From: Clostridia bacterium
Lineage (GTDB): Bacteria; Bacillota; Clostridia; UBA1212; UBA1255
DNA length: 62,583 nt
Direction of reading: 5' to 3'
NCBI GenBank assembly: GCA_017560765.1
Contig: JAFZEI010000040.1
Location: 1 to 62,583 of the forward strand
The translations under genes and the position numbers were made by a program. The notes under the pieces were generated by a model. The model was not told the DNA's origin and did not search any database. It saw only the letters and a program-made list of their open reading frames with translations. How positions within the stretch are numbered: position 1 is the first letter of the stretch; every line of letters begins with the position of its first letter. Shown piece after piece: positions 21,555-30,886 of the stretch.

Positions 21555-22623
21555 GCATTTTTTTATCAAATGAATCTGTTAAATTTTTAATTCCTTTTTC
21601 ATCGGCAAAAACGAGGTCCTCAATTCGTACTCCACCGAGATTTTCTACATAAATTCCGGGCTCGATACTAAAAACGGTTCCTTTTTGTATTTTGAAATTG
21701 TTTTTAGGGCCTATTGTTGCTCCTTCATGTACCTCAATGCCCACACCATGACCCAAGCTATGTCCGAAATTAGGACCGTAGCCTGATGCACATATTATTT
21801 CCCGGGAAATATTATCCAGTTCTCTGCCTGTTATCCCGTCTGTATAACCTTCAAGAGCTGCTTTTTGTGCTTTATATACGATACTGTATATTTTTTGCAT
21901 TTCATCACACGGTTTACCTACAAAAAAAGTTCTTGTCATGTCAGAGCAATAATTGTTGTATTTGCATCCAAAATCAATAGTAACGGCGTCGCCGTATTCT
22001 ATTTTTTTATATGATGCGGCTCCATGCGGCAGTGCACTTCTCTTTCCTGATGCAACGATTGTATCAAATGCCCTGTCTTGAGCGCCATTAATCTTCATTC
22101 GATACTCAAGTTCTGTTGCAATATCCATTTCAATCGCGCCGGGTTTAAAACAATTCAATATTTCATACAATGATTTGCACGCAATTTCACACGCTTTAGA
22201 GATATATTCTAATTCACAAAAATCTTTTATATCTCTTATATCAGAAAAATAATTTCCTATACCAAAAAAATCAACATTTGCATATTTATTTTTCAATGCA
22301 TTATAGTCTTTATAAGATATATTTTCATTTTCAAAGCCTATTACAGAAATTTGCTCCTCTTCTATGACTTTTTCTATTGCAAATATATTCAAACATGATG
22401 CAGAAATCAATTCATAATCAGGACATTGTTCGGCTACTTGAAGGGTATATCGGGAATCAGTAATAATATATGCTCCGGAACGCGATAAAAACAACCTTCC
22501 GTCACCAAAGCCGGTAAAGCCTGAAAGATAAAATACATTTTCAGGAGAGGTTACGTACAATCCAAAAATGCATTTTTCTTTCATCATTTTGCGAACTTCT
22601 TCAATTCTCTTTGAAAAAATCAT
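21544..22623 (-). CDS. M24 family Xaa-Pro peptidase
   Basis: A 359-residue aminopeptidase-P-like enzyme that removes N-terminal residues preceding proline. It has a creatinase-type N-terminal domain and a pita-bread domain. Visible metal ligands include DFGCKYNNYCSDMTRTF and GHSLGHGVGIEVHE, and the glutamates near EPGIYVE and RIEDLV. The ATG at 22623 has GAGGTG upstream; a GTG 15 bases earlier is a poorer choice. It closes the aroK-aroQ-yqeG-pepP run. Confidence 0.93.
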   Translation of the reverse strand: MIFSKRIEEVRKMMKEKCIFGLYVTSPENVFYLSGFTGFGDGRLFLSRSGAYIITDSRYTLQVAEQCPDYELISASCLNIFAIEKVIEEEQISVIGFENENISYKDYNALKNKYANVDFFGIGNYFSDIRDIKDFCELEYISKACEIACKSLYEILNCFKPGAIEMDIATELEYRMKINGAQDRAFDTIVASGKRSALPHGAASYKKIEYGDAVTIDFGCKYNNYCSDMTRTFFVGKPCDEMQKIYSIVYKAQKAALEGYTDGITGRELDNISREIICASGYGPNFGHSLGHGVGIEVHEGATIGPKNNFKIQKGTVFSIEPGIYVENLGGVRIEDLVFADEKGIKNLTDSFDKKMLVL

Positions 22624-26873: not shown

Positions 26874-29261
26874 CTAGTACAGATATAGTACTATAACGCT
26901 CATGTCATCGGCGTTTGAAGAAAAGCTCTGTGTTTTATTAATTATTTCTTTTGCCACAAGTTCTGCACCATTATTATCCTTACTATTTCTTCTGACAATT
27001 GTTGCTATATATTCAAAAAAAACTCTTTTATTGACACCTCCGTTACTGAAAGCATCGTATACACCGTCTGTAAACATTACAATTGCAATATCATCGGAGA
27101 CATCACATTCTGTTATTTTGCAAGAAGCTTCTTCCAGTTCAGCAGAAACACCTGCAGGGGGCCGGTTTATTTCTACTGCTCTTACATTATCCTTACCGAT
27201 TATTACAGATGGAACAGCACCCATTTTTACAAAACCTGCAATTTTACTATGTCTGTTTATACAGCAGACATCAACAGAAGACGTCAATACCTCAGAATTT
27301 TTTGTTGTTAACATCATATTAACTGTTGAAACAGCAGCCGATATTTCAATTCCGCTTTTTATATACAATTCCAGTATTTTTATAACAGATTCACTCTGTG
27401 TTGCTGCAGTACTTCCTGTTCCCATTCCATCACTTAATATTGCAAAAGCTCTTCCATCGGCAATTTCAACATAACTGTACGAATCTCCCGAAACAGTATT
27501 GCTTTCGGCAGGGACACTTGCAAATCCCGGGGATATATTAAGCTCCGGTTTAACAATTAACTTTAGCTCTTTTACCCCGTTTCTTTTACTGCTTCCTCCT
27601 ACCGAATATACATTCATTCTGCTTCCTGTTTCTTGTGACACAACATCTGTAATTTTGCTTATTGTTTCCTTGTCGCAGCTTTTTCTTATGTAGATAGTAA
27701 CTTCAGGCATATTATTGTAATTTTTTGTTACAACCACATCATACGCATGTACTTCATGACGTTTTAATGCATCAATAATACTATTTTCTAATTTAAAGTC
27801 ATAGTTTGTTGCTCTTTTAATTTCTTCGGCAATTGTATGAGAAATTCTGCCCATTTCACCAAATTGTCTGATAACCATACTTCTGCACTCTTCAATTTTT
27901 GCATTGCATATTTTTTCAATTCTTCTTATCTCAATGCCTATTTTCAACTCATCTGTCACAGCATCCGGTTTAACACAAAACTCACTTAAAATTCTCATTA
28001 TTTCCGATGTGTTACTTCCCTTCTTTTCAATGATTTTTTCGCATTGTTTAAGAGCTTTTTCCCTAATTTTATACTCTCTTTTCCAACAATTACTGCTTAA
28101 TTTGCAATCAGAACAAACTTTGTTATAAACACGGATTAAACATGAATCCTCATTTTTGCACTCATTTGCTGACAATAAGTTCTCATTACCTGCAATGTCC
28201 ATAAATTCAGAAGACATTTCCGTTAAAGTATCCGAGTAGAACTTTGCTTTTTTTACAGCTGTATTTCTTATTTTTCCGGCATAATCAAATCTTACAGGCA
28301 AATCATTTTTTTGATACTGTTGTTTTTTATTAAACGAATATTCCTCTATTACGGGAATCTTAATGAAATCATATAAATTTAATGGCATTAAAGCAAAAAG
28401 AATTGATGCAAAGCCTGTTTCGTACATAGCATAAATTATTTCTTTTGATGCACCGAGCATTGTTGCAAGCAAAACATTACCTACAGCAAAAGCTATAATA
28501 ACTCCTGCTTTTTTAAATTTGTTAAGTAATCCTGCTAAAAAGCCGCAAAAAGAAAATAAACTGATTATTATTGCAGAAGATGAATTGGTTAAAATACCAA
28601 TCATAATACCGGCTGCAGCACCTGTACCCATTCCACCCTTTATACTAAATGCCATAATTACGAAAATGCTAATTACATTCCTTATAGATAATCCAAATAT
28701 TGTCAATGAAGGCAATCCCAAAAAAGCAATAATTGCCATTATTGCAAAACACGCAAGTTCTTCTTGTGTAGGTTTGTAAGACGTTGTATTTTTATCTACT
28801 ATATCGGAAATTGCAGACTCACCTATTCTATATACAAAAAACATTATAAAAGTCACTGCTGCTTGAATTGCAAGATTAATTACATCCATGATTGTTGAAT
28901 TTGTAGACGAAAGTAAAATTATCATCGGAACAGTGATTGTAAATACAAGTGCAACAGCACATTTTAAAACGAATGGATATTCTTGCTGAATAGAATTTTT
29001 TATGAAATAATAAGCAAAAATAAATAAAATAATTGTTACTGTCGAAATAACAGTTTGTTGCCAAACTCCTGTTGTCAGCGAGCCTATTATACAAGCAAAA
29101 GAATACAATATTATGCCGATAAAACCATAGCTCATATCGTGAGACATAACAGCAATCGCAAAGGCAGCCGGACCAAAAGGTGCAATTCCGGCCACTCCTG
29201 CCCTTGCCGCTAAAAATATATAAAGCGAATAAAAAACACTTTTTTTATTTATTACTCCCAT
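26874..29261 (-). CDS. spoIIE: Stage II sporulation protein E (PP2C phosphatase)
   Basis: SpoIIE sits at the polar septum during sporulation and dephosphorylates SpoIIAA, which releases sigma F in the forespore. The 795 residues show about ten N-terminal transmembrane helices (1-310), a central regulatory region and a C-terminal PP2C domain from about 580. The PP2C metal motifs are SGDSYS, LSDGMGTG and MFTDGVYDA. The length is close to Bacillus SpoIIE (827). It is a single-gene unit with Spo0A-like boxes upstream, and its presence implies the organism can make endospores. Confidence 0.96.
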   Translation of the reverse strand: MGVINKKSVFYSLYIFLAARAGVAGIAPFGPAAFAIAVMSHDMSYGFIGIILYSFACIIGSLTTGVWQQTVISTVTIILFIFAYYFIKNSIQQEYPFVLKCAVALVFTITVPMIILLSSTNSTIMDVINLAIQAAVTFIMFFVYRIGESAISDIVDKNTTSYKPTQEELACFAIMAIIAFLGLPSLTIFGLSIRNVISIFVIMAFSIKGGMGTGAAAGIMIGILTNSSSAIIISLFSFCGFLAGLLNKFKKAGVIIAFAVGNVLLATMLGASKEIIYAMYETGFASILFALMPLNLYDFIKIPVIEEYSFNKKQQYQKNDLPVRFDYAGKIRNTAVKKAKFYSDTLTEMSSEFMDIAGNENLLSANECKNEDSCLIRVYNKVCSDCKLSSNCWKREYKIREKALKQCEKIIEKKGSNTSEIMRILSEFCVKPDAVTDELKIGIEIRRIEKICNAKIEECRSMVIRQFGEMGRISHTIAEEIKRATNYDFKLENSIIDALKRHEVHAYDVVVTKNYNNMPEVTIYIRKSCDKETISKITDVVSQETGSRMNVYSVGGSSKRNGVKELKLIVKPELNISPGFASVPAESNTVSGDSYSYVEIADGRAFAILSDGMGTGSTAATQSESVIKILELYIKSGIEISAAVSTVNMMLTTKNSEVLTSSVDVCCINRHSKIAGFVKMGAVPSVIIGKDNVRAVEINRPPAGVSAELEEASCKITECDVSDDIAIVMFTDGVYDAFSNGGVNKRVFFEYIATIVRRNSKDNNGAELVAKEIINKTQSFSSNADDMSVIVLYLY

Positions 29262-29330
29262 TAAATTTTCACCTGCTCATTTTATCTTTTGTGAAGAAAA
29301 CTTTTACAGGCACATCATAATATAACATTA

Positions 29331-29347
29331 TGACGAACAATGACGAA
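29331..29347 (-). promoter_or_regulatory. Two tandem Spo0A-type boxes upstream of spoIIE
   Basis: On the plus strand TGACGAA occurs twice (29331-29337 and 29341-29347), ten bases apart start to start. Each differs from the 0A-box consensus TGTCGAA at one position. One turn of the helix is the spacing used by a Spo0A dimer. On the minus strand they overlap a possible -35 (TTCGTC at 29347-29342), with TATATT 17 bases further as -10. Confidence 0.7.
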
Positions 29348-29367: not shown

Positions 29368-30144
29368 TTATACTACAGAATACATATTCCTGTCTTTTTC
29401 TGACACTTCGCATATGATGCCACATTCATTTAGCATTTCAGCTAATTTAATTACGCCGGGATACTCAGTAAAATAGTGTCCGGCACCAATTGTAATTATT
29501 GACTGTCTTTCAAGATCTATGCAGTCAAAATGTTTGAGTTCTCCTGTTACTAACACCTCAATGCCACACTTATCAAACCAGTATGTTTTTGAATCAAAAG
29601 CACCGCAAGAAACACCAACTCTAGAAATATGATCATCCATACTTTTACCTTTGGGAAGTATAATCTTAACTGCCGGTACACCAAGTCTTGCCTTAACATC
29701 TTCAGCAAGTTCTTTTACTGTCATCTTTGTTTGTGTATTTCCATAAGTGTGCTTACCGTCTAAATCCTTAACTATATCTTTTAATCCTATTGCTGCAGCA
29801 AGAGAATCATTAATTCCGTTAGGAGCATAATCAAGATTTGTATGAGCAGAAAAAACAGTTATTCCTGCTCTGACTGCTGCACAAACAGCAGGTACATTTT
29901 CTTCAACCATATCAGATATACCTTTAAATATAAACGGATGGTGGGAAATTATCATATTACAGCCTTTTTCGACTGCCTCTTTAACTACATCGGTAGTAAC
30001 ATCAAGACAAACAAGTACCTTGTCAACCATATTCTCTGAGGAACCGGTTTTTAAACCCGGAGAGTCCCAATCTTCTGCCAAGTGAGGCGGAGCAATCTGC
30101 TCTTCCATAATTTTAATAATTTCTTTAGCTTTTAATTTATTCAT
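29368..30144 (-). CDS. Nif3-like dinuclear metal centre protein
   Basis: A 258-residue member of the Nif3/YqfO family, which forms hexameric toroids with a two-metal site. Ligand motifs HHPFIF and SAHTNLD are visible. The enzymatic role in bacteria is uncertain (GTP cyclohydrolase I type 2 has been proposed). It lacks the central PII-like insertion of Bacillus YqfO. It overlaps trmK by 8 bases; the trmK-nif3 pair is conserved in Firmicutes. Confidence 0.92.
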   Translation of the reverse strand: MNKLKAKEIIKIMEEQIAPPHLAEDWDSPGLKTGSSENMVDKVLVCLDVTTDVVKEAVEKGCNMIISHHPFIFKGISDMVEENVPAVCAAVRAGITVFSAHTNLDYAPNGINDSLAAAIGLKDIVKDLDGKHTYGNTQTKMTVKELAEDVKARLGVPAVKIILPKGKSMDDHISRVGVSCGAFDSKTYWFDKCGIEVLVTGELKHFDCIDLERQSIITIGAGHYFTEYPGVIKLAEMLNECGIICEVSEKDRNMYSVV

Positions 30145-30886
30145 TAATTATTTCTCCTGTTTTTAATATTTGATTTACTTCTGATATTATTTTTTCAGAT
30201 ATTGATATCCTGTCTAATGTGTTTTTGTCAGATTCAACTCTTTTTTGCAGACCCAAAAGAATGTTTTTATGTTTTTTCAAAATCGTTTTATAATAAACAA
30301 TATCATTTTCATTCAATCTTTGTTTCATTATTTTACCTGTATAACACTCAAGCTCTGTATATTCCTCAATTACGGAGCAATATTTACATTTCAAAGCTAA
30401 ATAAACATGGGCACCATCCTTAACGGCATGCTCATCCTCTATAACAAAATAATTATCCCACAAAAACCTTCTTATGATGTGCTCGTGTGTATTAGGTTGT
30501 AATACAAAAATATTATTTCCCGGGAAATAATTCTTTTTATCGCAAATAGCCAACCAATCTTGAAGTATTTGACAAACCGTAAGACCTCCCATACCTGCAA
30601 TAACTATTGTATCGCAATCCAAATCCTCATATCCATCTAAACCACTGCATAAAAGAGTTTTTACCTTATCATTTAGACCTGCTTCGCTTATATTCTTAGC
30701 CGCAACACTTAAAGGACCTTCTCTCAAATCAGACGCTATTGCCCTTTTGCATTTACCGTTGTTTACGGAATAAATCGGCAGCAATCCGTGATCCGTGCCA
30801 ACATCTCCCAAAACAGTGCAATTGGGAATCATATCATATATCATTTTTAAACGTAAATTAATTTCGGCAGGCGTATTCTTTGACAT
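30137..30886 (-). CDS. trmK: tRNA (adenine(22)-N1)-methyltransferase TrmK
   Basis: TrmK methylates A22 in the D-loop of tRNA. The 249 residues begin with the SAM-binding region (DVGTDHGLLPIY) and have the family motif IAGMGG, then a C-terminal helical domain. The ATG at 30886 has AGGAGAG ten bases upstream, and it overlaps the end of ispG by 29 bases. An earlier in-frame start at 30907 would lengthen the overlap without a better site. Confidence 0.92.
   Translation of the reverse strand: MSKNTPAEINLRLKMIYDMIPNCTVLGDVGTDHGLLPIYSVNNGKCKRAIASDLREGPLSVAAKNISEAGLNDKVKTLLCSGLDGYEDLDCDTIVIAGMGGLTVCQILQDWLAICDKKNYFPGNNIFVLQPNTHEHIIRRFLWDNYFVIEDEHAVKDGAHVYLALKCKYCSVIEEYTELECYTGKIMKQRLNENDIVYYKTILKKHKNILLGLQKRVESDKNTLDRISISEKIISEVNQILKTGEIINE

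Follow-up and report, generated by a model that had tools for sequence, protein, structure and literature searches.

Paired putative Spo0A boxes ahead of spoIIE in one gut Clostridia order, apparently one DNA turn nearer the gene than in Bacillus

What is known of Spo0A activation in Bacillus is usually assumed to apply to spore formers in general, in which both spoIIE and spoIIG must be switched on for sporulation. According to the title of one paper, Spo0A and sigma reportedly interact at the B. subtilis spoIIG promoter, and Chen et al. are said to have described, in 2006, a Spo0A-dependent extended -10 promoter in the same species. As a yardstick we used chromosomal genes contained within records of a plasmid collection, the Bacillus geometry given here being that of these sequences together with general background. 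Upstream of B. subtilis spoIIE (NZ_AP028965.1, L194), TTTGACA ends 21 nt before TATAAT, with 2 of 6 box matches at 11 as well as at 31 nt. B. velezensis spoIIGA (NZ_CP083716.1, L198) carries ATTGACA at 22 and CTCAACA at 32 nt before TATACT (4 of 6 each), and TTTCCCA, likewise 4 of 6, at 12. In spoIIE of Paenibacillus and of Monoglobus, the match is 4 of 6 at 21 and again at 11 nt, and in Pusillibacter spoIIGA it is 4 of 6 at 21 and 3 of 6 at 11. For C. difficile, PMC3485338 reports that the Spo0A DNA-binding domain binds the spoIIE and spoIIGA regions in vitro with low affinity; at spoIIE, PMC13395437 places predicted Spo0A boxes close to the -35, and PMC3789822 gives a mapped GTGACA and TATAAT upstream of spoIIGA.

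Here, we analyzed a pair of Spo0A boxes in a stretch of 62,583 nucleotides (hereafter the window, meaning this whole stretch) and compared it with the corresponding promoters of its genus, order, and class. The site ahead of spoIIE is real and conserved and very probably functional as a Spo0A site, which would be ordinary in its action and unusual in its position.

The box pair ahead of spoIIE and its counterpart at spoIIGA

The 106-base gap between nif3 and spoIIE hosts the plus-strand heptamer TGACGAA twice, with a start-to-start step of 10 bases, just as the initial annotation had read it (Table 1). Toward spoIIE, i.e., on the minus strand, the site is TTCGTCA TTG TTCGTCA (TTCGTCA-N3-TTCGTCA), both perfect boxes being located at -86 to -70 relative to the spoIIE ATG. 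The identity assigned to the gene behind the boxes was confirmed by both of its Pfam domains (PF19732 and PF07228), and its product scores under the stricter NCBIfam equivalog cut-off (TIGR02865, 415.5 vs 490.8 bits). Within the genus, the leader stretch ACAAAAGATAAA and the ribosome-binding site are kept about as well as the boxes.

Table 1. Coordinates of the features around the spoIIE promoter region in the window
Feature	Position	Strand	Basis
spoIIE, 795 aa, SpoIIE_N and SpoIIE phosphatase domain	26874..29261	minus	ORF; PF19732 196 bits, PF07228 67.6 bits, both over cut-off
Ribosome-binding site GCAGGTG	29270..29276	minus	CAGGTG invariant in 5/5 genus genomes
Leader stretch ACAAAAGATAAA just before the spoIIE ribosome-binding site	29281..29292	minus	largely invariant, 5-genome genus alignment
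Inferred -10 hexamer TATGAT	29314..29319	minus	5 of 6 to TATAAT, spaced as in relatives
Proximal Spo0A box TTCGTCA (putative)	29331..29337	minus	end 11 nt upstream of the inferred -10
Distal Spo0A box TTCGTCA (putative)	29341..29347	minus	end 21 nt upstream of the inferred -10
nif3 (DUF34/NIF3), upstream gene, co-directional with spoIIE	29368..30144	minus	ORF and domain match

Lone TGNCGAA boxes mean little: their count hardly exceeds chance in the window (37 vs 27.4 expected, with 3 of 100 shuffles reaching 37). The perfect pair TGNCGAA-N3-TGNCGAA matches once in the 2,187,778-base (2.19 Mb) genome, and a reversed control pattern not at all; the genome scan that had been proposed for boxes at 10-base spacing returned the spoIIE site as the only perfect pair. 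Within the 150 nt upstream of spoIIE, none of 400 dinucleotide shuffles reached its pair score (p 0.0025, representing the floor of the test). When one mismatch was allowed, 23 pairs were detected genome-wide vs 13 for the controls, which leaves the relaxed pair unspecific when used by itself. Pooling of the five genus genomes gave 104 such pairs vs 86 for the controls, G003 even falling below its controls (21 vs 23). In G001, those other perfect pairs that were placed fall within long frames (addA-like, hisD-like, and nucleotidyltransferase-like; names tentative). On these counts, the pair by itself was judged too unspecific to map a regulon, and as a motif for genome-wide Spo0A mapping, a use that had been suggested, it proved a weak tool.

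Upstream of spoIIE, at -79 to -90, all five genomes of the genus carry the pair in a perfect or one-mismatch form, the four others having exactly one mismatch in twelve informative positions. Alignment of the five genomes showed no variation in the distal TTCGNC or the proximal TTCGTC, against a gap that drifts over much of its length; a lack of conservation in relatives, which would have spoken against the site, was thus not found. Both spoIIAB and spoIIGA were found in each of the five genomes. At spoIIGA, the head of the sigma-E operon, a like site in the same orientation, TGCGGCATATTTCGTCA, is present in the genome of the window and in G002 and ends 11 nt before TATAAT. The other three genomes have weaker spoIIGA pairs (8 or 9 of 12), likewise 11 nt before TATAAT, so that this hexamer lies at exactly 11 nt from the spoIIGA box throughout the genus. 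Related genomes share sequence by descent, and the pair could in principle be an inherited or chance sequence devoid of function. We regard this as highly improbable, considering the invariant box cores within a drifting gap, the same spacing at the unrelated locus spoIIGA, and a box at 11–12 nt from the -10 at one or both promoters, i.e., at at least one of them, in seven of the eight order genera with spoIIE.

Runs of 0A boxes were also observed elsewhere in the genus, in forward orientation, upstream of short frames and near a YetF-like gene (name tentative). G004 has three in a row with 10-bp steps (L038 1501-1527) and G000 a weaker run (L064 1224-1240), possibly depicting a further Spo0A target.

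Spacing between box and -10 in the order and the class

A total of 60 upstream regions was surveyed, comprising 15 spoIIE loci of the order and 15 of other class members as well as 12 spoIIGA loci of the order and 18 of other class members. They were obtained from 30 of the 38 genomes with a spoIIE match and 30 of the 32 with a spoIIGA match; all 15 order genomes with SpoIIE_N were taken into the spoIIE set, and start codons were guessed from the ribosome-binding site. The scan considered every 5-of-6 box located 0 to 45 nt before every 5-of-6 -10 hexamer. A phylum-wide spoIIGA sample, for which 30 loci were read out of 258 matching genomes, was left out of the counts as too distant for clear boxes. 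Upstream of spoIIGA in L121-L150, many distant loci share, as judged by eye, a CATATNATGGTAATAATTA-like stretch within ~70 nt.

Among the 27 order loci, boxes ended 11 nt before the -10 in 16 cases (one of them, at G004 spoIIE, being a chance match at -104 upstream of the true pair), at 12 nt in four, at 21 nt in 11, and at 31 nt in five (one of which, L176, is a second reading of its own 11-nt box), with no more than three at any other distance. The 33 loci of other class members showed none at 11, 12, or 31 nt, four at 34 nt, at most two at each remaining distance, and seven at 21 nt, an element that may equally be a -35 or a box, since all seven belong to spoIIGA and are mostly TTTGACA. For spoIIE, boxes at 10–12 nt were present in 9 of 15 order loci (including G004, whose true box lies 12 nt from a 4-of-6 hexamer) vs 1 of 15 in the class (Fisher 0.005), and for spoIIGA in 10 of 12 vs 1 of 18 (Fisher 2.2e-5), p values that overstate independence as the loci are related by descent. 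The effect nonetheless appears at two separate promoters and in several genera, and both class matches in this range sit at 10 nt. After shuffling the order sequences 200 times, a box at 10–12 nt was found in 0.2 loci on average and in two at most.

The mean best pair score (of 12) in the order amounted to 9.8 vs 7.22 in shuffles for spoIIE (15 loci) and to 9.42 vs 7.19 for spoIIGA (12 loci), while class scores stayed close to their shuffles (7.47 vs 7.08 for 15 loci, 7.17 vs 7.07 for 18 loci); L188, for which no -10 was obtained in the promoter alignments, is counted in the n of these scores and of the spacing scans. A gap of three bases is favored, with 13 of 27 order loci scoring at least 10 vs 0–5 at each of 14 other gaps, and none of the 33 class loci does so at gap 3. 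Two kinds of alignment were used, one picking the -10 jointly with the boxes and another ignoring the 11-nt position when picking; at class level, the mean box score at 11 nt was near background (1.7 and 2.1 of 6).

Six of the 15 order spoIIE loci have no 5-of-6 box at 10–12 nt. G016 carries a single TTCGACA at 21, and G018 two CTCGACA at 31 and 21 before TAAAGT, i.e., in the Bacillus-like place. The best box of G019 and G021 is TTCGACT at 31, accompanied by weaker 7-mers at 21 and 11, and G020 and G029 reach at most 3 of 6 at 11. At spoIIGA, G019, G020, and G029 carry an 11- or 12-nt box, and the loci of G018 (L187) and G016 (L174) gave no convincing promoter. A strong box inside the -35/-10 spacer, at spoIIE as well as at spoIIG, appears to characterize most but not all members of the order.

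As -10 of the window, TATGAT is preferred because many of the loci compared show the distance of 11 nt, at spoIIGA without any ambiguity. Two more 5-of-6 hexamers overlap it, namely TATATT at 6 nt and TATTAT at 8 nt from the proximal box. If one of these were the -10, the TCGTCA within the distal box, which matches TTGACA at 4 of 6 positions, would form an ordinary -35 with a normal spacing of 16 or 18 nt, and Spo0A would act over or against it. Both hexamers are among the 3 sites that the promoter scan returned (1.2 in shuffles), each matching at 9 of 12 positions, and TATATT carries a TGn, yet their distances are rare in relatives (6 and 8 nt in one and two of the 27 order loci, vs 16 at 11 nt), and the same boxes at spoIIGA have TATAAT at 11 nt in every genus genome, which makes this assignment rather improbable.

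With TATGAT as the putative -10, the hexamer at 21–22 nt from it is TCGTCA in the window, and its counterparts among 18 order promoters with a box at 11 or 12 nt match TTGACA at 0–5 of 6 positions. None of these 18 promoters has a 4-of-6 TTGACA match at 16–18 nt. The same holds for a -35 at this spacing in 23 class promoters aligned alike (0/23), so its absence is not specific to the order and goes with this kind of promoter in general. A TGn, defining an extended -10, was present in none of the 18 order promoters vs 7 of the 23 class promoters. Judging from these alignments, the space just upstream of the -10 would be occupied by a box only in the order.

Proposed mode of action and the Spo0A-type proteins

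Probably, the spoIIE promoter is of the sigma-A type and directly activated by Spo0A~P from both boxes, with spoIIG being activated alike. Spo0A is predicted to dock, very probably, on both boxes ahead of spoIIE, and Spo0A control of this promoter is a well-supported prediction. Two protomers, lined up head to tail, would occupy a single face of the helix; with the putative -10 placed at -12 to -7 of an equally putative transcript start, they would span about -40 to -34 and about -30 to -24. As TATGAT would be accompanied by neither a normally spaced -35 nor an extended -10, RNA polymerase would have only the -10 and its contacts with bound Spo0A to hold it at the promoter. Direct contact with Spo0A~P is suggested because the -35 is missing and a box fills the space upstream of the -10; the lack of both a -35 at normal spacing and an extended -10 would likewise render transcription strongly Spo0A~P-dependent. 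With the same layout at the spoIIG operon, SpoIIE, the activator of sigma-F, and the sigma-E operon would be switched together. Counting against this direct activation by Spo0A~P, the search in the genus upstream of spo0A (320 nt) and upstream of spoIIAB together with spoIIAA (700 nt) yielded no pair of boxes below three mismatches; single perfect boxes are present before spoIIAA in G000 and G004.

The position of an activator decides its mode of action, and a protein bound within the spacer would, in a simple picture, clash with the polymerase. Only the distal box might then activate, the proximal one serving as an operator that blocks polymerase at some Spo0A~P level and thus sets a threshold or a later shut-off of spoIIE. 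Such a role would fit the B. subtilis rule, as given in PMC4168254, that Spo0A sites overlapping the promoter go with repression. We consider it unlikely, as the proximal box is kept at 5 or 6 of 6 in 10 of the 12 order loci at spoIIGA and repression conflicts with the genes involved, both of which need switching on for the cell to sporulate.

The genome of the window encodes a Spo0A of 275 aa with receiver and Spo0A_C domains (TIGR02875, 217 bits at a cut-off of 200), so the site does not lack its regulator, an outcome that would have undermined the initial annotation. TIGR02875 is over cut-off in all five genus genomes, the match in G004 holding one stop codon. In the structure paper of 1LQ1, residues of the recognition helix reportedly touch bases. 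Comparison of the C-domain in 16 order members revealed that only G016 keeps the B. subtilis helix RVERAIRHA. The His is replaced by Thr in 13 and by Asn in two of them, and the Arg of VER by Lys in 12 of 16; the helix in the genome of the window reads SVEKAIRTA. G016, the exception in the helix, also stands apart at spoIIE, where it has a single box (at 21), and the association of helix change and box layout is a correlation resting on this one contrast, not proof. In a wider and more doubtful version of the proposal, Spo0A bound astride the spacer, at about -40 to -24, would activate spoIIE and spoIIG and replace the contact between sigma region 4 and the -35, this layout having arisen along with the changed helix (RVERAIRHA to SVEKAIRTA) in one gut Clostridia order.

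Three Spo0A_C proteins are encoded in this genome. Besides Spo0A itself, these are a divergently transcribed neighbor of spo0A (L001 3-770, minus) and a 131-aa protein consisting of the C-domain only (L002 1444-1839, minus). The receiver part of the former was missed by Pfam and shows a faint likeness to receivers (E 0.001 to 0.04); matches at its position occur also in G001, G002, and G003, together with a C-domain match in G004. Matches similar to the C-domain-only protein occur in G001, G003, and G004. One of the two extra proteins might bind one or both boxes in place of Spo0A, perhaps as a mixed dimer with it. The divergent paralog beside spo0A keeps VERAI in its recognition helix vs VEKAI in canonical Spo0A; considering its weaker Spo0A_C match (53.4 vs 122.5 bits), we judge such binding very unlikely.

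Elsewhere in the order, no match to SpoIIE_N and, at E 1e-25, none to Spo0A was obtained in the genera g4 (7 genomes) and g11 (6 genomes), a pattern suggesting that sporulation was lost twice.

A palindrome met upstream of spo0A and spoIIAA in the search for box pairs turned out to be a Noc-binding site. The window itself contains two perfect copies of ATTTCCCGGGAAAT, at 21797-21810 and 30515-30528, a sequence contained in the NBS oligo given in PMC8429893. With at most two mismatches, 29–47 sites per genus genome were counted vs 1–4 for the controls. In the loci read (L086-L090, L106-L110, and L216-L226), 11 of 16 order genomes have a site with no more than one mismatch ahead of spo0A or at its start; in the four genus genomes read, it directly precedes a TTGACA-like -35. 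All five genus genomes have such a site before spoIIAA as well. A link of this kind between nucleoid occlusion and the promoters of master genes of sporulation would be unusual, and a literature search limited to open-licence papers showed none evidently on this subject.

Comparison with known Spo0A-dependent promoters

No published description of the 11/21-nt layout was found in a literature search limited to open-licence papers. If the strong box indeed acts one turn downstream at two promoters and in several genera, the geometry of sporulation commitment would have been rewired at least once. A composite motif, TTCGNCN-N3-TTCGNCN-N11-TATAAT, is now available along with a short list of helix residues, and sporulation in these uncultured genomes is supported.

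The promoter in C. difficile with GTGACA and TATAAT upstream of spoIIGA resembles the class-level set, in which none of the 33 loci has a 5-of-6 box at 11 or 31 nt. Like the extended -10 promoter of B. subtilis, the promoters of the order would be Spo0A-dependent and lean on the -10; in contrast to it, all 18 are devoid of TGn, given the chosen -10, although the alternative TATATT of the window would have one.

With the Spo0A-activated sigma-A promoters of Bacillus spoIIG and spoIIE, the layout shares the genes, the 0A box, and a main element at 21 or 22 nt, and with Bacillus spoIIGA also a second box-like 7-mer 10 bp from that main element. On comparative grounds, the element at 21–22 nt is old and shared, since it is present in the Bacillus, Paenibacillus, Monoglobus, and Pusillibacter copies, and the hallmark of the order is the strong box at 11 nt. 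The latter may be an old weak site that was strengthened rather than a wholly new one, as faint 4-of-6 matches at 11 nt occur elsewhere. The Bacillus-like layout claimed by the initial annotation hence stands for the distal box, located in the classical place, and falls for the proximal one at 11 nt, where B. subtilis spoIIE has 2 of 6 and B. velezensis spoIIGA 4 of 6 (at 12). Correspondingly, the spoIIG-type geometry of Bacillus, with a pair at about 22 and 32 nt, is not that of the window, whose pair lies 11 and 21 nt from TATGAT and would be closer still with TATATT or TATTAT. Unlike Bacillus, with TTGACA at 21–22 nt and the second spoIIGA 7-mer at 32, the window has TCGTCA as its hexamer at 21 and a pair of boxes at 21 and 11, both 6 of 6, which apparently places them one DNA turn nearer spoIIE.
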